Part shown: one piece after another, positions 1,361-17,385 of the stretch | How positions within the stretch are numbered: position 1 is the stretch's first letter | How the letters are laid out: every line of letters starts with the position of its first letter | Virus record (IMG/VR): IMGVR_UViG_3300009169_000100 | Location: 1-23,779 of that record | DNA: 23,779 nucleotides | Direction: 5' to 3' (one strand) | Source: a virus | Program-made: the position numbers and the translations under genes | The notes under the pieces: generated by a model | Database searches by the model: none | Told to the model about the DNA's origin: nothing | What the model saw: the letters and a program-made list of their open reading frames with translations, nothing else

Positions 1361-3265
1361 TTATATGAGGTTCATGTCGAGCACGGTTACGGTTGCGTAG
1401 AAGTCATTTCTGACCATTCTCTTACCGTAGCGGGTCATCACGCCCTTACGAGGAGTGAAGTCCTCCTGTGCATAGATCACAGGGGTCAAGATGAGAGGAA
1501 CGTATGGTGCGTAGATGTAACCTGACTCTAGGAAGGTGTTACCCTTTAGACCAAGGAGAATCTTGTTGCTTGGGAAGTATGGATCCTTGTACACCGTATA
1601 ACGGTTATTTAGGGTTCCGACTGCCTCTGCACCGATGGTCATCGAATCTCTTACCTGACCGTCGCTGTCGAGTCTGTAAGCAGGCTTGTACGAGACAAGG
1701 TGCTCAAGAATCGTGCATACGTCTGGGCTGGTTACCACGAAGTTAGCAGAGCCACGAAGGGTCTTCTTGTAAATCGTGTTAGCAGCATCCGAGATGGTCT
1801 CGATGAGGGTCTGGTACCACTCCTGGACGTTCACAAAGGCCATAGGGCCTGGTGCGAGAGTCGAGGACTGTAGTGCCTCTGCGCCGGATACCTTGTTCAC
1901 GATCTTGCCTGGGGCACGAGACCAGAAGAGGTTTGCAGCACCGGCCTGGGTAAGCAGGTCGTTGAGGATTTCACGGTCGATGTCGAGCGTGATCATCTCA
2001 GAGAGGATATTTGTAAGCTCTACTTCGATATCAATCGAGTAGAAGGCGGTAAGGTCCTGAGCCATTTCTGGTGACCAGCGAGCACGAAGCTTACGGGTTA
2101 CAGCAGTTACGGAGGTGGACTCGATGCGGATGTCGATCTCTGGGATCTTTGGGGACGCATCAACTGCGAAGTTCGACTCGAAGCTTGGGATGGTCAGGGT
2201 TGCACCATCGGTGTTAACGCTAAGCGAGTCAGCGATAACTGCCGAGCCAGAGATAGCCGCCGTGATGGGCTGAGGAGTTGCGGCGGTGTTGCTGACACGC
2301 AGAACGAACAGAACGTGCGAGCCGTTCAGAGGGTCTGGCGTGAAGATACCGGTTGTCGAACTCCAGTTGCCACGACGATTCAGCTTACGAAGGTTGAGGA
2401 CGTTCGTACCATTCTGGTACTGCTCACCCCACGAAGTTGCTCCGCCACCTAGGGTACCGAAGCCGGTGATTGCGATCTGCTCCAGGGAGTTGAAATCTGC
2501 ACCGCCGATGGTCGTAGAGATGGTAGAGGTTGGAAGGAACATGAAGCATACGTCTAGGACGCCATCAGTGAGGTCGTTCTCGATCTTGCAATCATATCCG
2601 ACATAACGAGCGTTGAAGCCAGTGAAGTCAGCAGCGGTTGTCATGGTTGCGGTTGAACCAGCGGTCCACACCGAGCCACTTGCCCAGTAACCAATGTCCA
2701 GAAGCGACGAGGAAAGAAGGGTTGTTGCCTTGTGAACCTTCGAGAAGCCGGTGCCGACTAGGTCGTACTGGCCGCCGGTTGCAAGAGAGCCAGAGCGAAT
2801 ACCAGAACCACGGGGGTTATTGTAAATCGACTGACCATCAGAGTACACCGAGGAAACAGCGGCGCTGTCCAGGGTGACGCCTGCTGCACCACCAACGTTG
2901 CTACCATACGAATAATCGAGATAGAACAGAAGGCCGGTTGGGAGGCTCATTGGCTGAACGGATACAACCTCATTCGCAATAAGGCCTGCGAAGACCCTTC
3001 TTACGATTGGGAATGCAACGTTCGTGAAACCAACTACCTGCCCCGAGGACTGTAGAGTTCCAGCGCCAAGAGACAGAGTGTTCTGCTCCTTTAGAAGCTC
3101 TGCTGCCTGGTTCTCAAGCAAGCGAGCCATATTCTCTCGTGAGGTGCCCTTGATACCCTCAAGAAGACCGGTTGCGGCCCACTTCTTGAGTAGACGAGGG
3201 GCTTCCGAACCGAGACTTCTGCGGTGGATACCCTCTGCGAGCTGTGACAGTGTAAATGATTTCAT
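1361..3265 (-). CDS. gp23: Major capsid protein, T4 gp23-like
   Basis: A 634-aa protein from the ATG at 3265, which is preceded by AGGAG at 5-nt spacing; a GTG two codons upstream overlaps that site and is less likely. The segment around residues 78-120 (GFTNVAFPIVRRVF, then VQPMSLPTGLLFYL) matches the gp23 region that reads VRR..., VQPM and PTG in T4-like capsids. A later stretch (YSIDIEVELTNILSEMI, then DIDREILNDL) matches the gp23 core helix region. The N-terminal 60 residues are charged and helical with (L)-x-E sites at about Glu36, Glu51 and Glu60. These are candidate cleavage points for the prohead protease; T4 gp23 is cut after Glu65. At 634 aa it is about 110 residues longer than T4 gp23. 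It is the last gene of the head module. Confidence 0.95.
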   Translation of the reverse strand: MKSFTLSQLAEGIHRRSLGSEAPRLLKKWAATGLLEGIKGTSRENMARLLENQAAELLKEQNTLSLGAGTLQSSGQVVGFTNVAFPIVRRVFAGLIANEVVSVQPMSLPTGLLFYLDYSYGSNVGGAAGVTLDSAAVSSVYSDGQSIYNNPRGSGIRSGSLATGGQYDLVGTGFSKVHKATTLLSSSLLDIGYWASGSVWTAGSTATMTTAADFTGFNARYVGYDCKIENDLTDGVLDVCFMFLPTSTISTTIGGADFNSLEQIAITGFGTLGGGATSWGEQYQNGTNVLNLRKLNRRGNWSSTTGIFTPDPLNGSHVLFVLRVSNTAATPQPITAAISGSAVIADSLSVNTDGATLTIPSFESNFAVDASPKIPEIDIRIESTSVTAVTRKLRARWSPEMAQDLTAFYSIDIEVELTNILSEMITLDIDREILNDLLTQAGAANLFWSRAPGKIVNKVSGAEALQSSTLAPGPMAFVNVQEWYQTLIETISDAANTIYKKTLRGSANFVVTSPDVCTILEHLVSYKPAYRLDSDGQVRDSMTIGAEAVGTLNNRYTVYKDPYFPSNKILLGLKGNTFLESGYIYAPYVPLILTPVIYAQEDFTPRKGVMTRYGKRMVRNDFYATVTVLDMNLI

Positions 3266-3322
3266 GTTCACTCCTAAATTCCTGTGTTTAACTATTTGGC
3301 TATTTTCAACAATTCCAAAGAA

Positions 3323-5695
3323 TCAGTCTTCACTACGATTGATTCTTGCGAGCTTCTGCCATCTCTCAAATGTTCCCACTATTGGATCTGCTCCGTCTGG
3401 GGAACCATTTGCCTGTGATGTTCTTGCGCTCTCCTGAAGCTTCGCACTGCCAGCGGTCGTTGGCTTTGATGCCGAACCAGCCACGGAAGTTGAAGAACGG
3501 CCTGCCGACTCTTCAAGCTTTCTCTTAATCTTGCCGTAAATGTCCTTGGCTTCAGCTACGTTCGTTGCCTTGTCGAGATGCTCGACAATCTGCTGCTTTA
3601 CCTTGCGGCTAAGACCTTCCTGTTGAAGGAACTTATTGAGGTAAAGAAGCTTGGACAGGAACAAGTTAGTTTCAGCCATTTCTTTCTTAAGCTCTTTGAC
3701 TTCAGAAACACGAGACTCAGCAAGTCTCTTGTATGCCACTGCTGCCTTACGATTCTCTAGAAGGCTCTTCTTCATGCGACGGTTAAGCTTGCGGGCTGTG
3801 CCGAGCTTGGACTCAAACAGAGACATCTCGTCCATTCCCTCTTCGTCAGCAAGAACCATGTCCTCTTCCTCAGAGCCCATCGAGCTGCCATGAGAAGGTA
3901 CGCCGCCCTCTTCTTCCTCATCACCGAGGTCAAGAGACATTTCGTCTTCCTCACCACCAACGTCAAGGTCGCCTTCGTCTTCGAGGCCAGCATCAAGAGA
4001 CATCTCGTCTCCCTCTTCTTCGCCCTCAAGACCCATTTCGTCTCCACCGAGCTCGAAGTCAACGTCAAGGTCAGCAACATCAAGTTGGTCCTCAATGTCG
4101 TCAGGAAGCTCTACGTTCAGAACTAGATCCTCTTCCATGCCTGCGCCGCCCATCATGCTGTTCTCTTTCACGGTTTCCTTTTCTAGAACTGCCTTGGAAG
4201 ACTTGGACTTGCCCTCTGGCTTGCCCTTCTCCCAACCAGCAGTCTTCTTCGCTGCCTTCTTTTCAGCATTCTCCTTGCGGATAGCTGCAACGGCCTCACG
4301 AAGTTCCTTCTCGTCGATCTCGAAGAACATATCAGGAGCCGCAACTGGCTTCTCGGAGGAATCTCCAAAGCCTGCATGACTCTTGGTCTCTTCTACCTCT
4401 TCAGATACAACCTCAGGCTCGCCCTCTTCCCATGGCTTCTTCTGAGACTTTGCGCCACTTGCATTAGGCAGGGCGGGCGAGTTTACGGAGCCAGCAGCAG
4501 CTCTGACATGTCTACCCTGCTTGCCGCCGGGCATAATGTCTTGATTTGCGTGCTCTTCCTTGAAGAGGTCTTCAACTTCTGGCGAAACACCAGACTGCTC
4601 TTCTGCTTGTGCGGTTGCGCTTGCATGAGTAGGCAGACCAGTCTTACCGGTAGATGCACTATCCTTCGCAAGAGATTCTTGATCGTCGCTCTCGAAGAGC
4701 TGTGCTGCGTATTCTTTAAGGCTTTTCTTCATAGGATCTTCCTTCTCATCCATATCTGTGGTATAACTATTGCTCAATCCGGCTTCTTTCAATTTGAGGA
4801 ACAAAAATTCCAGTCTCTTTTCGTTTAATCTTGCCTGACTTTGTGTAACTCTTCCACTTTCGAGAAGAGAGTCAAGCGACTCCAGGAGACTAAAAAGCCT
4901 ATTTTTCAGTGATTCTTGTGTGATGTCAGACAGTCTTGGCTTGTAGTAAGCCCTGTCTACTTTTTCAGCAGCCTCAGTTAGGGCTACCTTGAATTTTTCG
5001 TAAGATGCTCTCTCGGCTAGAGGTGCTGCTGGAGGTGGTGGTGGATTCTGAGTCTCATCCTCTTCCTCACCTGCAACTGGAGCTGCTCCAACCATGTCTG
5101 GCGACGCTGGTGGGGGAGGTGCTGTTGCGGGCTCGGTTGGTTCAGTTCCCACTGTCCCGGACAGGGCTGGGTCCTCAGCAGGAGCTACTGGAGCTGCATC
5201 TGCTGGTGGAGCGGGAATCTCTCCGCCCGGAGGCATTGTTGAGGTATCGACTGGAGACACTGTGTCCCCGGAGCCCTCTCCAGAAAAGAGTTGTTCAAAA
5301 TCAATCGTAATCTTGCCGTCTGCATCTGGCATTGGAACGTTCATAACATCAGACCCCATAACGGAAATAGGTGCTGGTGTGGTTGATACATCTCCACCTT
5401 CAACAGCCGAATCTGTTGGCATGGCTGAATTATCTACAACCGCAGAAGGTGAACCGTCATCCATGGTTGCTGGCATTGCAGAATCGGCCGTTACACCAAC
5501 CGGGTCAGCTACGCCACCAGCAGACAAGTCATCATCCTCTTCAAAAAAGAAGGACGTAGCACTTGCGGCTTCCTTGGCAATCATCTTCTTGATGTATGGA
5601 GATACCTTCTCCATGATGGACTTACGAGCATCTTCCTCAGCAAGTTCACGGAGTTTCTTTGCGTCCATAATCGCTTCTTTATAGAGATCACTCAT
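3323..5695 (-). CDS. gp22: Prohead core scaffolding protein, gp22-like, very large
   Basis: A 790-aa protein from the ATG at 5695 (AAGGT about 6 nt upstream; a GTG at 5710 is also in frame but overlaps the previous stop). It sits between the protease-side genes and the capsid gene, the position of gene 22 in T4. The C-terminal part has a long helical region and the pattern LLYLNKFLQQEGLS, then QQIVEHLDKAT and DIYGKIKRKL. I recognise this as the signature at the end of T4-like scaffold proteins, followed by a terminal RWQKLARI. The N-terminal 230 residues are Ala/Pro/acid-rich and look disordered. The middle is lysine-rich and then extremely acidic. T4 gp22 is only 269 aa, so this is an expanded version. 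Expected role: the transient inner core of the prohead, degraded by the protease. Confidence 0.8.
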   Translation of the reverse strand: MSDLYKEAIMDAKKLRELAEEDARKSIMEKVSPYIKKMIAKEAASATSFFFEEDDDLSAGGVADPVGVTADSAMPATMDDGSPSAVVDNSAMPTDSAVEGGDVSTTPAPISVMGSDVMNVPMPDADGKITIDFEQLFSGEGSGDTVSPVDTSTMPPGGEIPAPPADAAPVAPAEDPALSGTVGTEPTEPATAPPPPASPDMVGAAPVAGEEEDETQNPPPPPAAPLAERASYEKFKVALTEAAEKVDRAYYKPRLSDITQESLKNRLFSLLESLDSLLESGRVTQSQARLNEKRLEFLFLKLKEAGLSNSYTTDMDEKEDPMKKSLKEYAAQLFESDDQESLAKDSASTGKTGLPTHASATAQAEEQSGVSPEVEDLFKEEHANQDIMPGGKQGRHVRAAAGSVNSPALPNASGAKSQKKPWEEGEPEVVSEEVEETKSHAGFGDSSEKPVAAPDMFFEIDEKELREAVAAIRKENAEKKAAKKTAGWEKGKPEGKSKSSKAVLEKETVKENSMMGGAGMEEDLVLNVELPDDIEDQLDVADLDVDFELGGDEMGLEGEEEGDEMSLDAGLEDEGDLDVGGEEDEMSLDLGDEEEEGGVPSHGSSMGSEEEDMVLADEEGMDEMSLFESKLGTARKLNRRMKKSLLENRKAAVAYKRLAESRVSEVKELKKEMAETNLFLSKLLYLNKFLQQEGLSRKVKQQIVEHLDKATNVAEAKDIYGKIKRKLEESAGRSSTSVAGSASKPTTAGSAKLQESARTSQANGSPDGADPIVGTFERWQKLARINRSED
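3820..4040 (-). repeat. Acidic DEMSL repeats in the scaffold gene
   Basis: Within the scaffold gene the minus strand encodes four spaced copies of a DEM(S/G)L motif embedded in Glu/Asp/Gly-rich sequence. On the plus strand they appear as AGACATCTCGTC-like units near 3821, 3935, 3999 and 4031. The copies are imperfect, with spacing of about 30-115 bases. They look like internal duplication that lengthened an acidic core segment. Confidence 0.6.
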
Positions 5696-5706
5696 TGTAT
5701 TACCTT

Positions 5707-6186
5707 TCACTCACCTAGCGGTGTGGACTTGCCCTTCTGAAGGCTTCCAATTGTCTGACGAGAAATAACTGCTGATGTATCGTGTGGGGATGCTAGGCCG
5801 TCACCGGAGAATGCTCCACCTGAACCTCTAGCTCGCTCGGTAGCTTCCACGCCTGCCGCTGGAATATCTGCTGGGTTCTGGCCTACTGCCGGAACTGCAA
5901 TGTTTGGTCCGTAGGGCGAGCCAGGAAGGCCTCCGCCACCAACTTCAACATCAGCAAGGTTGGGAGCTGCCTTGTAGTCGATGTCAACGGTACCAAACGT
6001 GTGGCCACCGTCGTTAACCTCTCCAGACAAAATCTCATCCATGTACTTGGCTGTTACGACTTCATCCGTAAGCTCGCCGCTGTATACAGGAGAACCTGGG
6101 TAAATTGCCTGCAAATTTGCAGTGTCAGAACTCCCGTTGCCTCTAACTCTTACTGGTGGTTGCACCATAATCTGTTTGCGTGCCAT
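5707..6186 (-). CDS. Unrecognised protein between protease and scaffold genes
   Basis: A 159-aa protein starting at the ATG at 6186, preceded by AGGTAATAC, a ribosome-binding context nearly identical to that of the scaffold gene. It is rich in Gly, Pro, Ala and Val, with little predicted regular structure. Landmarks are a basic N-terminus (MARKQIMVQPPVRVRG), a central DEVVTAKYMDEIL helix and a glycine-rich second half. The stop overlaps the region upstream of the scaffold start. Its place among head-assembly genes suggests a prohead core or internal component, analogous in position to T4 gp67/gp68. I see no sequence similarity that proves this. Confidence 0.75.
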   Translation of the reverse strand: MARKQIMVQPPVRVRGNGSSDTANLQAIYPGSPVYSGELTDEVVTAKYMDEILSGEVNDGGHTFGTVDIDYKAAPNLADVEVGGGGLPGSPYGPNIAVPAVGQNPADIPAAGVEATERARGSGGAFSGDGLASPHDTSAVISRQTIGSLQKGKSTPLGE

Positions 6187-6236
6187 GTATTACCTGTGCT
6201 CCGTTTTCAGTAAATAGAGTGAAGAGTGGAAAACCT

Positions 6237-6797
6237 TCACTTACGACCAGTATTACCAAAGGCAACAGCGGCCCAACGAGACATGTCGCCAGCAACGGCA
6301 AGAGACTGAAGCTCTTGCTCATTTACTTTCTCTACCTGTCCCTGCATACCTGCCGCTGCCAAGTTCCCATAACCACGTCTGTCGGTATCGTTTGCCATCA
6401 TCTGAGGCAGGGTGTTAACTGCCGTATCTGCAAAGATGGACGCATAGCTCTCAGCCAGTTGAGAATCTCCCTTGGCCATCATCCTTGCCGTAGATTCAAC
6501 AAGGTTTTGCAGTCCTGGATTCTGAATTTGTGAAGTTGGACCTGACTCATACCCAGCAGGCATCATCGCATCCAGTTCATCCTCGGCTCCTGCCATTCTC
6601 CTGGCCGCTAGACGAGCACGTTCAGCAACCATCGGGTCTCTACCAGCAGTGCTTCCCAAACGAGAGGTTGGCTGTTGAGCTGTCTTTGGTTTTGTGGTTT
6701 TCGATTCAGTAATGGTCTGCCCGAAAGCTCCTTCTTTAATGAGCTCTCTCATGCACTCCTTGATCATCGCCTTGAATTCGCTTTTCGTTAGCTTCAT
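6237..6797 (-). CDS. Unrecognised head-module protein
   Basis: A 186-aa protein whose ATG overlaps the TGA of the protease gene (ATGA), implying translational coupling. The first 25 residues (MKLTKSEFKAMIKECMREL...) form a strongly charged amphipathic helix with several (I/M)-x-E sites (Glu14, Glu18, Glu22), of the type cut by T4-like prohead proteases. A low-complexity Thr/Lys/Pro linker follows, then a helical Ala/Met-rich part (about 75-150) with NLVESTARMMAKGDSQLAE. It has no Cys-rich motif, membrane segment or recognised domain. A role in the prohead core or as a packaged internal protein is inferred from position and from the processing-like N-terminus. Confidence 0.75.
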   Translation of the reverse strand: MKLTKSEFKAMIKECMRELIKEGAFGQTITESKTTKPKTAQQPTSRLGSTAGRDPMVAERARLAARRMAGAEDELDAMMPAGYESGPTSQIQNPGLQNLVESTARMMAKGDSQLAESYASIFADTAVNTLPQMMANDTDRRGYGNLAAAGMQGQVEKVNEQELQSLAVAGDMSRWAAVAFGNTGRK

Positions 6798-7405
6798 AGT
6801 CTGCCTTTTTTGATCCCCAGAATTTCATTTGCAACACGATCAATTCGATCGGACTTGGAGAATATTCTGTTGAGAATCCTAGGATCCACTTCCTTGGCCT
6901 CTCTCATCATAAAGGCACCAGGAGTTGAGGGCTCTGATACCAGGTCCCAACAAATTAGGTGAAGGTCATCTTCTACAACATCAGCCTCGCCCGAAGAACG
7001 TACAGAGCCAAGTGCCCTGGAGGAGATACCAATCTTCACATTGGACTCGATGAGAGCCCTAGCAATGTTGCCCATTGGGGTCGGAAGGATCTCTATCTTT
7101 CCATACACCACGAGACCCTCGGTCCAGATATCTGTTATGAGGTGCGATACGTTTTTTAGATTGACAACGGGGTCATCAGCGTGGTCGAGCTCTCCCGTAG
7201 CACGTCGTTCCTGCACAATTTTCTTGTAGTTGTCCACCTGACTAAACAGGATGGCCTTTGGGTAAATTCTGCCGTTCTGGTTGAGAGTGTCCGCCCTCTG
7301 AAGAACGCCTTTGACAAAGAGCTTGCCAAGACGACCATCACCAGGAATTGCTTCTTCCTTGATGACTTCGTACTCAAACTCCTTGAATTCTTTTAGTAGC
7401 TTCAT
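6794..7405 (-). CDS. gp21: Prohead core protease, T4 gp21-like
   Basis: A 203-aa protein resembling T4 gp21 and the related phage prohead serine proteases. Visible motifs in order: NQNGRIYPKAIL (42-53), conserved near the N-terminus of these proteases; GELDHADDP (71-79) with the presumed catalytic His75; GISSRALGS (126-134) with the catalytic Ser in the SS pair at 128-129; and WDLVSEPS (153-160) with a conserved Asp. Expected role: after prohead assembly it cuts scaffold and capsid N-termini at (L/I)-x-E sites and then itself. The ATG overlaps the TGA of the upstream 291-aa gene, and its own TGA overlaps the next ATG, so three genes are coupled. The length is close to that of T4 gp21 (212 aa). 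Confidence 0.93.
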   Translation of the reverse strand: MKLLKEFKEFEYEVIKEEAIPGDGRLGKLFVKGVLQRADTLNQNGRIYPKAILFSQVDNYKKIVQERRATGELDHADDPVVNLKNVSHLITDIWTEGLVVYGKIEILPTPMGNIARALIESNVKIGISSRALGSVRSSGEADVVEDDLHLICWDLVSEPSTPGAFMMREAKEVDPRILNRIFSKSDRIDRVANEILGIKKGRL

Positions 7406-8277
7406 TCGCTCTCCATTTCCTCTCTCAGCTTAGAAATTGTCATGTAGAAAGAGATGGCATCCTCTGTTAGTTTGGTAACATCCCCATACTCACCACCATC
7501 AGACATAAGAGCCTTGATTTCAGCAAGCTTATTCCTGAGCGGTCTGTCGAGAGAGCTTTCGTTAAGAGTCCTGCTTGACATCACCTTAAGAGTCTTTTCC
7601 TGTATCTGCGAAAGAAGGGAGACAAGTTCAGTTCGGGCTGCGGAGTCCTTGCCAGAGAAAGCAAAGAGACGAACAATCTCTTTCTGCTCTGGGTTTAGGG
7701 TGTCAGAATACTTCCTGTTGAATTTTTCGGTCATTATCTTAACGACCAAACTGTCAATGTCCTCAGCAGAGACATTGGCCATTTCTTCGGTAATCAACAC
7801 CTTGTCCTGAAGCATGTGCTCAAGAATGCTCTCCTCGAGAACGGCTAGGTCAGCGAATCCGCCCTTGAACCCAGTTCCTCGCCAAGCATTCATCAAAAGC
7901 TGTACAGATGCGATTGTCCTGTAGTTGGACACGGAACGCTTAAAGAAGTCGGAATCCTTGAGAGATACGTTGATTTCGTTTATCAGGGCAGACTTTTCTC
8001 TATCCAGCTTTTCCTGAGACTGCTTCTGTACCTCGCTCTTTACTCTTTCGAGAAGAGAGTGGGCGATCTGTTTGTTCTTCAGGGCTGTGTCATGCAGAGC
8101 ATTGAAGAGGACAAACTCCTTGTAGGTTTCTGTCTTTGGAGAAATGTACTTCTGCCAAATTCTATTGGCTTTTTCGATATCTCCGTGACGGCCATCAATG
8201 AAAGCAGTAGCGATATAGCGAGAGAAGAACTCACTAATCAGACCGATGTTGCGCTTTTTGTTGTGCTTGAATTCCAT
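7402..8277 (-). CDS. Conserved head-module protein of T4-like phages, function unknown
   Basis: A 291-aa, mostly helical, charged protein. I chose the ATG at 8277; a TTG two codons upstream is the other option. The N-terminal segment NIGLISEFFSRYIATAFID, then IWQKYISPKTETYKEF and LFNALHD, matches a family I recall between portal and protease genes in cyanophages and other distant T4 relatives. Later sequence has NYRTIASVQLLMNAW and a long C-terminal helical part. There is no catalytic motif. By position it corresponds to the T4 gp67/gp68 prohead-core region, but the size and sequence differ and the role is not established here. It is coupled to the protease gene by an ATGA overlap. Confidence 0.8.
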   Translation of the reverse strand: MEFKHNKKRNIGLISEFFSRYIATAFIDGRHGDIEKANRIWQKYISPKTETYKEFVLFNALHDTALKNKQIAHSLLERVKSEVQKQSQEKLDREKSALINEINVSLKDSDFFKRSVSNYRTIASVQLLMNAWRGTGFKGGFADLAVLEESILEHMLQDKVLITEEMANVSAEDIDSLVVKIMTEKFNRKYSDTLNPEQKEIVRLFAFSGKDSAARTELVSLLSQIQEKTLKVMSSRTLNESSLDRPLRNKLAEIKALMSDGGEYGDVTKLTEDAISFYMTISKLREEMESE

Positions 8278-8351: not shown

Positions 8352-10469
8352 TCAATCTAACGTCGTTAGATCAACCTCACGACGCACAGATTCCTCTTCT
8401 TCTTCGTCGTTTTCATCTTCCTTGGATACAGCTTCAGCCAAAACACGAGCCTCATCCTCTTGCTCAAAGTCTTCGTTCTCGTCATCAGCCAACTCAAAGT
8501 CTATGGTTGGCTGCTGGGCTGGGGCCTTGGAGATTTGTTCGTAAAGGAGTTTGCTTTCATGCTCCTTTATGAAACCGTCGATGCGTTTAAATAGAGCCTT
8601 CATCTCTCTCGGAATTACTGGAGCTGGCTTCAGGTCGAGCTCAATCTCCTCAGAGAAAGACTTACGCAGGTTGAGCGTTTCAACATCATTGATATCTGTA
8701 AGGGACCTAGACTTAGCGGAGAGCATTGTCTTGAAATCAGGTAGAGCAAGGTTAGAACGTCCCCCGAACCCAACTCTTCTGTTTTTGTTGTGCATGGCTT
8801 GATTCAAGAAAGGTGTTGCCGAAATTGGCAGTCCTGTAGAATTGTCTGGACTAGTAAACATGTCACTAGACATTGACTGCTGAGAAGATGTCTTCCCGGC
8901 AGAGGCAGGAGCCCCAGTTGCAGCTACGGGACGTACGGGAAGCCCACCGTCCATTGGTGGATTCTTACTGACGCCTGCTCCCGGAAGCGAATAGTTGGAG
9001 GGATGGAATGGATCGACTGTTGCGTTTGGAAGAGGTAGATTCTCCTGTACAGCAACGGCCTCAATTTCAACTTCTCTAATCTTGTCCCTTCGACGACCAG
9101 CCTCGATCTTGATGATTTCATCCTCGGTAAGCTCAAGAACCTTTCTCTGAATCCAGTCCTCGTCAACGAGCTTCGTCTCCTTGGCAGTTCCAGCAATCTC
9201 AAACTTCATGGAGATTGCTTCCAACTTCTGCTGCATTGCAACAGTTGATGGGTTGGAGAGCTTCAGTTCAAAGTTAATCAGGTCCTCGCCATCAAAACCC
9301 TTGGTGTACAAGTGAATCATGGCTAGCTTGTTCAGCTCTGCAATCACAACCCTCTGCAAGACAGATATGGTTCTAGAGAATCGCACGTCCTGCTGGGCTA
9401 GAGAAGCCTTGGCAGAGAGGTTTTCGTCAAAGTTCAGGTATGGCTTAGGAACCTGAATGGCAGCGAAGAGCTTCTGCTGAAGATACTTCACGTCATCGAC
9501 AGCAGTTGCATTCTGACCGCCTGCAAGTGTGTCAATCTTTGTTCCGGTCTGTCCACCACGCACAGGAAGGAAATAGTCCTCATCAATCGAGATTGGGTTG
9601 TATCTCTGGTCAACACGACCATTTGTTCTGTCAACGACATCCCTGGAACGGAGAGTTTGCTTAACACCTTCCATGTATGAGCCAACGTCATTTGGGGCGA
9701 TGTTACCAACGTCAATGTAGAAGACTCTACGTTCTGGAGAGCGAACAACTCGATAGACCAACATGCTGTCTTCCATCATCAGGAGCTGACGCCATACACG
9801 ACGGGCAGGCTCAAGTACGGAGGTTCCATATGGCAGGAATAGATCGTTACCCAGAATTCGCATGTGGGTGATCTGCCAGTTTTCAAGATAGCGATTTCCT
9901 CTTGTTAGCCACTTGAATCTAACGGCGTAGAGATCGTCCTGGTCGAAGCCCTCCTCACGCTCAAGTTCATTCACGGCAATCGGCTGAACGTTGATGATTC
10001 CAATATCAGGAACGATTTCGTTATAGAGGAAGAAGTCGCCATACTTCACAAGATTCCTTACCCATGGACGTAGATTGAAGTCGATGTTAAGGATATCATA
10101 GAAGAGCTCCTCAAGGGCTTTCTTCACTTCAGGATTCTTTGAATAGAGGTGGAGAGCCTTACCCTTTTCGTCACCAGCAACAGTTTCGTCGGCAAAAATG
10201 TTCAGTGCGGCTGCAATCTCGGGGGTATATTCCATCTCAGCAAATTCGGAATATCTGGCCATTCTATCTAAGATGCCATATGCACCAAGGACAGAAAACG
10301 GAGAACTCTCTCTTCCAAAAGGAAATGGGGCCCTATAGCCGTAGTTACCACGAATTAACTCGTTGTCATAGTAGGAGCGATAGTCATATCCCTTCACTCG
10401 TCTCTGAATGGAGGGACCAGACCTGAACAACCGAGTCAGTCTGTTAAAGAACGTTTCATTTTTTGCCAA
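8352..10469 (-). CDS. gp20: Portal vertex protein, T4 gp20-like
   Basis: A 705-aa protein. The gp20 hallmark SPERRVFYIDVGN lies at about 244-256. Also typical are the N-terminal YTPEIAAALNIFADE region, PWVRNLVKYGDFFLYNE (135-151) and, after the hallmark, DEDYFLPVRGG and PKPYLNFDENLSAKASLAQQ. Twelve subunits should form the ring at the DNA-entry vertex that nucleates the prohead, docks the terminase and later binds the neck. The start is TTG at 10469 with GAGG about 9 nt upstream; there is no ATG in this frame for a long way, so TTG looks genuine. The C-terminal 170 residues are Pro- and acid-rich, ending in a run of Asp/Glu, an extension over T4 gp20 (524 aa). It is the first gene of the leftward head operon. 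Confidence 0.96.
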   Translation of the reverse strand: MAKNETFFNRLTRLFRSGPSIQRRVKGYDYRSYYDNELIRGNYGYRAPFPFGRESSPFSVLGAYGILDRMARYSEFAEMEYTPEIAAALNIFADETVAGDEKGKALHLYSKNPEVKKALEELFYDILNIDFNLRPWVRNLVKYGDFFLYNEIVPDIGIINVQPIAVNELEREEGFDQDDLYAVRFKWLTRGNRYLENWQITHMRILGNDLFLPYGTSVLEPARRVWRQLLMMEDSMLVYRVVRSPERRVFYIDVGNIAPNDVGSYMEGVKQTLRSRDVVDRTNGRVDQRYNPISIDEDYFLPVRGGQTGTKIDTLAGGQNATAVDDVKYLQQKLFAAIQVPKPYLNFDENLSAKASLAQQDVRFSRTISVLQRVVIAELNKLAMIHLYTKGFDGEDLINFELKLSNPSTVAMQQKLEAISMKFEIAGTAKETKLVDEDWIQRKVLELTEDEIIKIEAGRRRDKIREVEIEAVAVQENLPLPNATVDPFHPSNYSLPGAGVSKNPPMDGGLPVRPVAATGAPASAGKTSSQQSMSSDMFTSPDNSTGLPISATPFLNQAMHNKNRRVGFGGRSNLALPDFKTMLSAKSRSLTDINDVETLNLRKSFSEEIELDLKPAPVIPREMKALFKRIDGFIKEHESKLLYEQISKAPAQQPTIDFELADDENEDFEQEDEARVLAEAVSKEDENDEEEEESVRREVDLTTLD

Positions 10470-14044: not shown

Positions 14045-14314
14045 ATGACTATGGATGGAGCAGAAAGACAGCCAGACGAGATTGGTGAGCTTACCAAGGT
14101 CGTAAATGAGTTCATTGACCGCTTTAAGAGCGTCGAGCAGGAGATCGACCTTCTCAAGGAAGACCAGAAGTCCCTTGTTGAAGAGTTTAGTGATCGTCTA
14201 GATATGAAGACGCTTCAGGCTGCGATGCGTATTGTCAAGATCAAAAAGAAGGTTGGCTTCAAGGACACCTTTGACACGTTTGTTGAGATCCTTGAAGGGA
14301 AAGAGAATCTCTGA
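14045..14314 (+). CDS. Small coiled-coil protein, faintly GapR/DUF2312-like
   Basis: An 89-aa protein from the ATG at 14045, chosen over an earlier ATG because AGAGG lies 8 nt upstream. It is almost entirely helical with heptad-like spacing (LTKVVNEFIDRFKSVEQEI). It then reads LDMKTLQAAMRIVKIKKKVG, which resembles the D.K.LR..IRIRKK region of GapR (DUF2312), a nucleoid protein that binds overtwisted DNA and also occurs in phages. The resemblance is by pattern only and the length is right, so this is a suggestion. It is followed one base later by the next gene of the same operon. A small hairpin (14003-14018) lies in the 92-base gap before it. Confidence 0.7.
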   Translation: MTMDGAERQPDEIGELTKVVNEFIDRFKSVEQEIDLLKEDQKSLVEEFSDRLDMKTLQAAMRIVKIKKKVGFKDTFDTFVEILEGKENL

Positions 14315-14315
14315 G

Positions 14316-14768
14316 ATGTCACCAACGAACAAGAATGAGAAGTATGAGATCCCGATGATCCTCTATGAGGAGCCATCATCGCATGGTGATAAAGGAATTC
14401 CCTTTCCGTATATCGAAGTACAAAAGGACAAGAACATGCCTCCTGTTCTTTTCATCTTTGAGTACAAGCACACCGGAGAAATCGAGCCCGATGAGAACGG
14501 CAAGGATGCGGCAATCATTGACCAGATTCCTCACAAGTTTATCGACATGGAATTCCTCAAGGAGAAGCTGCCGCCAGAAATCAATGACATGATTCGTGTG
14601 GCTGTTGGAATGAAACCCTTGCAAATTGCTCAGGTTGAGGGACAGAAGATTCTGGACAGAGTCTTCGCAAAGGCTGATTCTTTCAAGGGCTCGGCCATGA
14701 AAGAAAAAGAGCAGAAGATTAAAGGGCTTGAAGAAGCCAAGAAGAAGAAAGAAGAAAAACTATCATGA
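14316..14768 (+). CDS. Unrecognised 150-aa protein
   Basis: Starts at the ATG at 14316, just after the previous stop; the earlier ATG at 14232 lies inside the preceding gene. The N-terminal half is mixed, with PPVLFIFEYKHTGE and the acidic PDENGKDAAIIDQIPHKFID. A helical stretch (LPPEINDMIRVAVGMKPL) follows, then a charged Lys/Glu-rich helical tail ending KKKKEEKLS. No catalytic motif, cysteine cluster or membrane segment is present. Its stop overlaps the next start (ATGA). It lies in a run of four small plus-strand genes immediately ahead of the chaperonin gene. Confidence 0.75.
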   Translation: MSPTNKNEKYEIPMILYEEPSSHGDKGIPFPYIEVQKDKNMPPVLFIFEYKHTGEIEPDENGKDAAIIDQIPHKFIDMEFLKEKLPPEINDMIRVAVGMKPLQIAQVEGQKILDRVFAKADSFKGSAMKEKEQKIKGLEEAKKKKEEKLS

Positions 14769-14959
14769 AGCTACACCCGCACGTAATTGAGAAGCTGATA
14801 TACCTCTTTGAGAACTATGGCGGGCATGTGAATAACGCCAAACTAAAGGCGCATCTTGCAGCCCTAGACCTAACTCCCTATGAGAAGAAAACCGGAAACC
14901 AAGAAGTCATTCTCGTTGCTACTGATGAGATGATGAAGATGCTCGGAAAGCAGTCATGA
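14765..14959 (+). CDS. Unrecognised 64-aa protein
   Basis: A short helical protein joined at both ends to its neighbours by ATGA overlaps, which supports its being a real translated gene. It begins MKLHPHVIEKLIYLFENYGG and has a basic middle (NNAKLKAHLAAL) and a strand-like EVILVATDE near the end. No family recognised. Confidence 0.7.
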   Translation: MKLHPHVIEKLIYLFENYGGHVNNAKLKAHLAALDLTPYEKKTGNQEVILVATDEMMKMLGKQS

Positions 14960-15591
14960 CCGATACCTCCAACAGAACACTGTCAATTGGGGAAGTCATC
15001 TATGTCTTGTCAAACAAGACGCAGAAGGTTGTTCCTGCAATTGTCGTGGAAGAGGTTCTTGTCAAGAAACTTGACGGAAACCAGATTTCCTGGAAAGTGT
15101 CTGTTGGACCCCCCGGCAAGGAAAGAATCATTGACTCTAACCGTCTGGATGGAGTCATCTATCCAACGCTTGAAGAGATCAGAAACGAACTGCACAAGAG
15201 ACTTTCTGTATTCCTTGACGAAATGATTTCCGAGGCCGAAAAGAGAGTTGAGCATTGGTACGGGAAGCAAACGGCCCAGCATCGAGCCTCGCAAGGACTC
15301 TCTGAGGATCCAAACGACAAGATCGACCCAGAAAACCTAATTTCTGATATCGAGACGCCGCTACAACCAAGGGCGTCACGAGCACCAATGGCTCACAGAG
15401 ATCCATCCAGCAGCGTAAGAGAGGAACTTCGTCGAAGGGCGGAGATAATGGCTGATCCAAATCATCCAATTTCCATAGCTTCTCGTGCGGCACAGGATGA
15501 GCGTCCTCCTGGAGGAGGAGAAATGATCGTAGACTCCGAGGAAGTCATTATGCCAGATGGCAAAAGAGTGAGATTTAACGTAAAGGGCTGA
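14956..15591 (+). CDS. Unrecognised 211-aa protein upstream of the chaperonin gene
   Basis: The N-terminal 80 residues look like a small beta domain (IGEVIYVLSNKTQKVVPAIV, then ISWKVSVGPPGKERIID). A long charged helix follows (LEEIRNELHKRLSVFLDEMI...EHWYG), then a Pro/Ser/Arg-rich, probably disordered segment, and a short closing strand VIMPDGKRVRF. The ATG overlaps the previous stop. It ends 27 bases before groEL, so co-expression with the chaperonin is likely. Being a chaperonin substrate or partner is possible, but nothing in the sequence shows it. Confidence 0.75.
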   Translation: MTDTSNRTLSIGEVIYVLSNKTQKVVPAIVVEEVLVKKLDGNQISWKVSVGPPGKERIIDSNRLDGVIYPTLEEIRNELHKRLSVFLDEMISEAEKRVEHWYGKQTAQHRASQGLSEDPNDKIDPENLISDIETPLQPRASRAPMAHRDPSSSVREELRRRAEIMADPNHPISIASRAAQDERPPGGGEMIVDSEEVIMPDGKRVRFNVKG

Positions 15592-15618: not shown

Positions 15619-17385
15619 ATGTCTACCAAGAATGTGCCTGGGGATGCACCAACTCAGCGTGTTGTTTTCTTTCCGAAAACACATGAAGAGCTTTTGAAGG
15701 GTGCGACCATCCTAGCGAATGCAGTTGCGAGTACCATGGGTCCCAGCGGGCACTCCGTTATCATTGACATGGAAGTAGGACCTCCTCAGATCACTAAGGA
15801 TGGTGTTACAGTTGCTCGGTCAATAAAGCTGAAGGATCGCCTTCAGTCAATGGGGGCAGAGCTCCTCAAGGAGGTTGCCTCCAAGACAAATGACGTAGCT
15901 GGGGATGGCACGACGACGGGGACGGTACTCGGACATGCTCTCTTAGCGGAGGGCGTCAAGATGATCTCCACAAATCGTTCGTCAATTGCCCTAAAGAAGG
16001 GAATGGAAATTGCAACCGCTCAGGTTGTTTCCTACCTCAAGAACAACTGTATCCCTCTTTCGTCCAGAGATGACATTGTTAACGTTGGGACCATATCTGC
16101 AAATGGTGATCGTTCCATTGGCGAACTGCTTGCAACTGCAATTGAGAAAGTTGGCAAGGATGGAATCATCACCATTGAACCGGCTAAGAGTGTGCAGACG
16201 ACCCTTGACATTGTTGAGGGTATGCAGGTTGATGGTGGGTATGTAAGCCCGTTCTTTGTAACCAACTCCGAGAAGGCTGTGTGTGAGCTTGATAATCCCT
16301 ACGTCCTTCTAACGCCTAACAAAATCTCTTCGATTCAAGACATTATTTCCATACTTGAGGGTGTTGCTAAGAACTCCAAGAGTCTTTTGATAATTGCAGA
16401 TGACGTGGAGGGCGATGCTCTTCACACCCTGATTGTGAATAAGACCAAGGGCGTAATCAAGGTTTGTGCGGTTAAGGCTCCATCCTATGGCGAGCACCGT
16501 GCGGACAGCCTATCGGATATTCAGACGCTCACTGGTGGGACGGTGTTCGGTGCCACAACGGATATTGCATTAAAGAATGCAACGGTTGAGCATCTAGGAC
16601 TGGCTAAGAAGGTCATTGTCGGTCGTGGAGCTACCACGATTATCGGTGTACCAGACCCAGAGAGAAAGAAGGCAGTTGGCGACCGAATAGCCTCTCTTAG
16701 GGCGCTTCTCGAAGATGGTTCGCAGGATGCTCTTCATGTTGACAAGACACGAAAGAGGCTTGCAAAGCTATCTGGCGGAATTGCCGTGATCAAGGTTGGT
16801 GGTGCTACTGAGGTGGAAATTCTTGAGAAGAAGGACCGTGTTGAAGACGCCGTAAATGCTACCATTGCCGCAACGCAGGAAGGAATCGTTCCTGGGGGTG
16901 GTGTTGCCCTGTTCTATGCTGCTCAATCCATCAAGGAGCAGTTGAAGTCTGGTGAGTATGGTATGCTGTATGAGCAAGATGTTGTTGCGGGTATAGAAAT
17001 GATCGCCAATGTCTGCGAAGCTCCGTTCAGAACTATAGTTGGAAATACTGGGGTTTCACCTGACGTTGTCGCCGAGAGACTCGTGCAGAACCACAAAGAT
17101 CATAAGGTCTTCTACATTGATGTAGGCAACGTCCAGCCAGAAGAGATGGCCTTGTATATTGAACAGGTCAAGAAAGAAATGGCCGCAAAGAAAGTCGTTT
17201 CTGATCCAAAGCAGGTACAGTTTCGTTTTGGCTACAATGCAGCTACTGGCAAATACCATGACCTTGTCACGGAGGGAATTATCGACCCCGTTAAGGTTAC
17301 ACGCTGTGCCCTGGAGCACGCCGTAAGCGTTATTGGCCTTGTCCTAACCTGCAACTCTGTCGTTGTTAATGAGGACGAAGAATGA
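15619..17385 (+). CDS. groL: Phage GroEL-family chaperonin with a portal-like insertion
   Basis: A 588-aa group I chaperonin. Visible signatures: TMGPSGHSVIID (39-50), VAGDGTTTGTVL (93-104; ATP phosphate loop), KVGGATEVEILEKK then RVEDA with the catalytic Asp410 (E. coli Asp398), PGGGVAL (425-431), and FGYNAATGKY (537-546; adenine pocket). The apical domain is present (VDGGYVSPFF, 204-213). Compared with E. coli GroEL (548 aa) it has about 45 extra residues (491-536) right before FGYNAAT, and it lacks the Gly-Gly-Met tail, ending NEDEE. The insertion resembles this phage's portal protein. It probably folds phage proteins such as the capsid protein, as GroEL with gp31 does for T4 gp23. No GroES gene is visible here, so it may use the host's or act alone. 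A start at the ATG at 15619, with AGAAAGAG upstream, fits. The next gene overlaps its stop. Confidence 0.97.
   Translation: MSTKNVPGDAPTQRVVFFPKTHEELLKGATILANAVASTMGPSGHSVIIDMEVGPPQITKDGVTVARSIKLKDRLQSMGAELLKEVASKTNDVAGDGTTTGTVLGHALLAEGVKMISTNRSSIALKKGMEIATAQVVSYLKNNCIPLSSRDDIVNVGTISANGDRSIGELLATAIEKVGKDGIITIEPAKSVQTTLDIVEGMQVDGGYVSPFFVTNSEKAVCELDNPYVLLTPNKISSIQDIISILEGVAKNSKSLLIIADDVEGDALHTLIVNKTKGVIKVCAVKAPSYGEHRADSLSDIQTLTGGTVFGATTDIALKNATVEHLGLAKKVIVGRGATTIIGVPDPERKKAVGDRIASLRALLEDGSQDALHVDKTRKRLAKLSGGIAVIKVGGATEVEILEKKDRVEDAVNATIAATQEGIVPGGGVALFYAAQSIKEQLKSGEYGMLYEQDVVAGIEMIANVCEAPFRTIVGNTGVSPDVVAERLVQNHKDHKVFYIDVGNVQPEEMALYIEQVKKEMAAKKVVSDPKQVQFRFGYNAATGKYHDLVTEGIIDPVKVTRCALEHAVSVIGLVLTCNSVVVNEDEE
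17089..17226 (+). other. Portal-like insertion in groEL
   Basis: Codons for residues about 491-536 of the chaperonin, absent from ordinary GroEL. VFYIDVGN (497-504; bases 17107-17130) is identical to portal residues 249-256. The next 23 residues align without gaps, with further matches at Pro507, Tyr513, Glu515, Val517-Lys518 and Val526-Val527, giving 15 of 31 identical. In codons, GTCTTCTACATTGA is shared exactly with the portal gene, and nearly all following differences in the motif are at third positions. The segment joins standard GroEL sequence on both sides (PDVVAERL before, FGYNAATGKY after). Confidence 0.85.

Follow-up and report, generated by a model that had tools for sequence, protein, structure and literature searches.

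Why does a phage-encoded GroEL carry in its equatorial domain a segment that reads like part of a portal protein, and what would such a segment be doing there? The question is raised by a virus contig, itself a fragment, deposited as IMG/VR record IMGVR_UViG_3300009169_000100, whose full stretch of 23,779 bases (positions 1-23,779) is called here the window. The two genes concerned, and the parts of them that resemble each other, are the following:

15619-17385, plus strand: groEL, 588 aa, a group I phage chaperonin with matches to PF00118, phrog_5725 (chaperonin groEL) and solved GroELs, the latter with E values down to 6e-147 (phmmer).
17089-17223, plus strand: the equatorial-domain insert, GroEL residues 491-535, about 45 residues between VVAERLVQ and FGYNAATG, where the alignment to solved GroELs breaks.
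17098-17199, plus strand: the portal-like core of the insert, GroEL 494-527, as delimited by BLASTP to the phage's own portal, the clip HMM and Portal_T4.
8352-10469, minus strand: T4-like portal protein, 705 aa with a TTG start (PF07230, 258.9 bits; phrog_213, E 5e-72).
9633-9734, minus strand: portal residues 246-279, the clip tip and following part, matched by the GroEL insert (BLASTP and T4 gp20 clip alignment).

The window GroEL scores over the Pfam PF00118 (Cpn60_TCP1) cut-off (207.9 bits against 34.3, residues 32-584) and has the nucleotide-site motifs AGDGTTTG at 94-101, VPGGG at 424-428 and FGYNAATG at 537-544, and it resembles the group I GroEL/Cpn60 family (PF00118, phrog_5725) in its full-length match on both sides of the insert and in its conserved GDGTTT and GYNAATG. 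It differs from that family in its 45-residue portal-like insert, and also in that no Cpn10 gene occurs in the 23.8-kb window record, which is a fragment; Cpn10 (GroES-like) genes were found in 3 of 12 related records, including L458 (G006) and L459 (G070), several of these contigs being fragments as well. The alignment to solved GroELs has a single break, between query residues 490 and 536, which correspond to the nearly adjacent residues 472 and 476 of 8wuc; the insert lies after helix Q and before the conserved GYNAATG segment.

The likeness to the portal had been noticed by eye in an initial annotation, whose coordinates and residues are correct; VFYIDVGN is at GroEL 497-504 and portal 249-256. 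In a single BLASTP comparison GroEL and the own portal share 15 of 34 residues (E 7e-7), and over 5,000 shuffles of the insert the highest score was 51, against 88 for the real sequence (Gumbel p 1.5e-8). Given that this pair of proteins was chosen by eye, unbiased tests weigh more. Searched alone by tblastn against 50,697 phage records, the insert matches almost nothing but T4-like portals, and the Pfam profile Portal_T4 (PF07230) matches GroEL 490-528 with E 0.0013, below its gathering cut-off and over profile positions 201-239 of 433 only, so that the whole portal domain set of wing, stem, clip and crown is not present. A portal-clip HMM made from 42 portal segments of other phages and run over 12,825 ORFs gave the window insert 34.7 bits (domain E 1.2e-8 for residues 487-537; protein E 1e-9), with the best of 15,154 reversed decoys at 9.7 bits; its best non-portal matches were the window GroEL (1.2e-8), the GroEL of a second contig, G009 (1.1e-8), and one small protein, called X below. 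In the opposite direction, an HMM of these two GroEL inserts retrieved 112 portals, the best at 4.8e-12. The proposal that the segment is portal-derived or a portal mimic is thus upheld by shuffles, blind searches and HMMs, a chance match being ruled out by shuffles, decoys and blind searches, and we consider portal ancestry or mimicry of the insert almost certain from these comparisons.

The matched part of the portal is, in T4, the part that meets the packaging motor. In the section of Sun et al. 2015 (PMC4493910) that deals with the clip, this domain of gp20 comprises residues 279-358, and its tip, with N291, M292, R295 and K296, faces the large terminase gp17; the same section describes that packaging is abolished by the double mutations N291A-M292A and R295A-K296A, and that a gp20 peptide of residues 288-311 binds gp17 and inhibits packaging. 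We verified the gp20 numbering on the T4 genome, and the alignment places the equivalent of that peptide as follows:

17119-17190, plus strand: T4-peptide-equivalent stretch, GroEL 501-524, aligned without gaps to T4 gp20 288-311.

The insert resembles the T4 gp20 clip (PF07230, PDB 3ja7) in that strand, tip loop and following helix align ungapped, the T4 strand being VWYVDTGN (284-291). Of the T4 tip residues, N291 is kept as GroEL N504 and as N256 of the own portal, and M292 is replaced by V505 and I257, respectively. The insert differs from gp20 in being a clip fragment only, without wing, stem or crown, and in missing the basic tip pair of T4: R295/K296 correspond to E508/E509 in GroEL and to N260/D261 in the own portal, and since the pair is kept in neither of them, the docking chemistry may differ in this lineage. 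In an AF2 model of the window GroEL a helix is predicted with moderate confidence at 507-523 and the strand is not formed, the insert as a whole having low confidence (pLDDT 53-77 per ten-residue block).

Our preferred explanation, to which we give as a whole a probability of roughly 0.45, is that a portal clip tip copied long ago acts as an outward docking tag on the chaperonin, most likely for the large terminase TerL. The clip tip (strand VFYIDVGN, docking loop and following helix) would have entered a GroEL loop of variable length in an ancestor shared by the window phage, G009 and a sister clade of seven members; the insert would then face the outside of the chaperonin, presenting a portal surface to cytoplasmic partners, and the tag would recruit a clip-binding protein, which the chaperonin would fold, hold or deliver. 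Such a partner would most likely be TerL (gp17-like), less likely a neck protein or a head-initiation factor, with the portal as a further alternative, and a docking site borne by the chaperonin may serve to fold or hold TerL or to keep it off immature heads. We infer that the insert folds as a clip tip, faces outwards and binds a partner, and that this partner is TerL. Judged from the sequences, a docking role with any partner at all seems somewhat more probable than its absence, and TerL as that partner is a tentative suggestion by analogy, TerL being the likeliest candidate because the T4 data name gp17 for exactly the peptide 288-311; no TerL gene was identified in the 23,779-base window. 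Among the functions proposed initially, namely tethering to the portal, binding a partner shared with it and tuning of the ATPase, the shared partner is the one favoured, because the insert corresponds to the tip of the clip, to which the large terminase of T4 docks, and portal tethering and ATPase tuning are by the same analogy less favoured.

Of the competing explanations, the one that survives best, unlikely as we consider it, is that a captured portal segment landed once in an insertion-tolerant loop, never had a binding role and is now drifting, and the history of the insert bears on it from both sides. Only two GroELs with a strong portal-like insert were found in IMG/VR, those of the window and of G009, whose insert, VFYIDVGNVAPEDLISYIESVKSKM, is the closer match to the portal of the two; an uninterrupted run of 11 residues, VFYIDVGNVAP, is common to the G009 GroEL and the portal of that phage. 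G009 comes from another metagenome and its GroEL is 77% identical to that of the window, so the insert is not an assembly chimera, and an assembly artefact is ruled out. Seven sister GroELs have the loop as KVFYIDTENADVEDLVSAVRHFK or variants of it, barely portal-like, without VGN and the tip proline and with no more than 4.8 bits against the clip HMM; L064, the nearest GroEL lineage outside this clade, has no insert. A GroEL tree computed without the insert columns joins the window with G009 (100/97), then the seven sisters (99/97 for the nine), and then L064. At seven positions the window and G009 share a portal residue that differs in the sister clade, and at none is it the reverse, so that the simplest course would be a single gain of the insert with later decay in the sister clade; the reverse order, a neutral insert later converging on the portal, would need all the changes on one short branch.

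The initial annotation had linked the insert to the phage's own portal in particular, and this part did not hold: among 66 distinct portal segments the own portal ranks about 38th, several portals of other phages outscore it, and the insert does not track the resident portal. At the DNA level the insert and the own portal are 61% identical over 105 bases and several common residues use different codons, by which recent gene conversion from the resident portal is disfavoured. Considering this lack of tracking together with the differing codons, the transfer would be old and not in step with the resident portal, and an old capture of a portal clip tip is very probable as far as the alignments can tell; the insert may also have been replaced via recombination with a portal. 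In bacterial genomes a first scan gave no relative and the best matches of a second scan were partial or of 30-37% identity, and a DNA pattern for HKVFYID retrieved the known members and unrelated proteins with no new member.

An insert without a binding role would fit well with the loss of portal likeness in the sister clade, which shows that chaperonins of this kind can do without that likeness, and this apparent decay would be the main argument against an essential role. It would also fit with the rate of change, the insert evolving at about twice the rate of the rest of GroEL, with the flexible loop that replaces helix Q in the phage EL chaperonin (PMC7185714), and with the unrelated insertions of other lengths found in the same loop of related GroELs (L059/L060, L065-L067, L057/L063). 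A different insert in another branch, exemplified by LKKKKKMDIGGNNIIEWENPLLPS in the GroEL C-terminal parts L065:10001-10375 and L066:10001-10378, marks this loop of these phage chaperonins as a hot spot for insertions. Against mere drift, VFYIDVGNV is unchanged between the window and G009 GroELs despite saturated synonymous sites (pS 0.93, pN 0.29), amino-acid-changing sites of the insert being far slower than silent ones, and the stretch retained is precisely the terminase-binding element. Elsewhere in these chaperonins, the G009 GroEL (L049:7613-10411, 933 aa) has an intein-like in-frame insertion of about 350 aa in a nucleotide motif, AGDG^...THN^TTTATV, and the L059 GroEL (L059:7640-10390, 917 aa) exceeds its close relative L060 by about 335 aa.

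A further point against an insert without a binding role, and in favour of a docking tag, is that the clip shape also persists on its own in the groEL gene block, as the protein X. The gene order in relatives is [350-400 aa]-[B, about 90 aa]-[slot X]-[E, about 140 aa]-[about 64 aa]-[about 200 aa]-groEL, and in the window the corresponding features are:

14045-14314, plus strand: gene B, 89 aa, no assigned function, in conserved order (phrog_14706, E 1.4e-5).
14312-14316, no strand: the empty slot X, with neighbours B and E abutting.
14316-14768, plus strand: gene E, of the EKYEIPxILYEEP family, with which 80 related loci were found.
14956-15591, plus strand: the gene directly 5' of groEL, of the IGxxIYVLSNK family, in conserved order, without a Pfam or PHROG match.

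X is a clip-like protein of 85-126 aa, four genes (about 1.5 kb) upstream of groEL in five related lineages, first caught by the clip HMM; it is present in L356, L357/L358, L359/L360, L363 and L364, and its coding positions are L064:7051-7356, L065:7143-7469, L068:7015-7392, L063:3079-3345 and L057:7042-7296. In G009 (L347) the slot holds a diverged clip-like protein, so that this phage has both an X-slot protein and the GroEL insert; in L365/L366 it holds a 76-aa ORF with no clip likeness detected, and it is empty in the window, the sister clade, L354/L355, L361 and L362. Neither Pfam nor PHROG has a family for the X proteins, and singly they match the portals of the phage records weakly or not at all. 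An HMM of the five X proteins, with no portal included, retrieved 110 portals, the best at 3.1e-12 (positions 8-69, including the second strand EDYFIPVRG; hhalign probability 98.5%), and after the portals the GroEL inserts of G009 (3e-4) and the window (1.1e-3) and then the G009 slot protein (0.012). The model of the L057 X protein (pLDDT 78) is predicted as strand-helix-strand-strand, which is compatible with the T4 clip and its three strands and single helix, and a Foldseek search with it gave nothing at E < 0.001, the best TM being about 0.35. From its occurrence in five related lineages, the non-portal use of the clip shape is, by sequence, recurrent. An origin of the insert from X instead of the portal is less likely, the insert HMM matching portals at 5e-12 and X at 2.5e-4, and a match of X to a GroEL-like protein of Pantoea phage Survivor (E 0.9) was taken as chance. 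Outside the groEL block, in G008, whose slot X is empty, a 64-aa ORF (L440:745-939) has the clip-tip motif NIFYIDVSNLSPKETEMFMNGVQSTL.

Folding of the T4 capsid protein needs GroEL together with gp31. In the next alternative, the insert would act on the portal itself, either pairing with its subunits for folding or dodecamer assembly or capping the clip until the head is ready. This we consider improbable. It agrees with the head proteins encoded in the window beside the portal, which are:

6794-7405, minus strand: head maturation protease, part of the T4-like head module.
1361-3271, minus strand: major head protein, part of the T4-like head module.

It also agrees with the need of T4 portal assembly for a phage chaperone, gp40 (PMC9958956); however, there is no sign that the insert and its own portal co-evolve, and the T4 data give gp17 as the partner of the tip. 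Still more improbable is an insert that alters chaperonin mechanics, at the ring-ring contact or the nucleotide pocket, its portal likeness having no functional meaning: the insert does sit between helix Q and GYNAATG, where phage chaperonins vary, but this would leave the portal-tip sequence unexplained, and the sisters with an altered insert and L064 with none are still 70-74% identical to the window GroEL. Chance convergence of a strand-loop-helix is the least credible of all, since even if HKVFYID alone recurs in unrelated proteins and the sister form KVFYIDTEN matches portals marginally, the clip HMM score far exceeds that of any decoy, the tally of common portal residues is seven to none, and the run of identical residues in G009 is 11 long.

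Phage chaperonins with altered equatorial loops are already known from phage EL (PMC7185714), whose gp146 is like the window GroEL in being phage-encoded and altered around helix Q in the equatorial domain, and unlike it in being a distant homologue whose loop 479-503 has no reported portal likeness (PMC7185714). The initial annotation knew of no description of a chaperonin with portal sequence, and our literature search, mostly without subscription papers, likewise found neither a portal-bearing chaperonin nor a detached portal clip. If the docking-tag explanation is true, a folding chaperone would bear the address label of the DNA-packaging portal, so that one molecule links folding to assembly of the motor. 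This would offer a way into the question of how immature heads are shielded from terminase, the sequence of a phage chaperonin would itself point to its clients, and there would be a family of free-standing portal-clip proteins that could be assayed for inhibition of packaging, for which a well-developed in vitro system exists. A wider and rather doubtful extension is that this lineage uses detached clip copies, X and the GroEL insert, as decoys or couriers, keeping the motor or some other partner of the clip bound until there are proheads ready for it; with the same doubt, this would amount to a checkpoint on packaging, the docking site of the portal being displayed by the chaperonin itself.

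Among minor observations on the head genes, the window has a GIY-YIG endonuclease gene (PF01541) at 593-1282 on the minus strand, adjoining the major head protein gene. In relatives, portal ORFs of 1005-1515 aa (starts at L012:8606, L013:8373, L014:1924 and L017:9986) contain one or two intein-like insertions each, at the sites EMEY^TPEI, PYGT^SLLEP and NFDENL^SAK. In G069 (L441), a GIY-YIG-like ORF (4165-4986) and the next portal ORF (4973-8200) both begin with MARNESFFQRL, as though the former had entered the start of the portal gene and one end had been duplicated.
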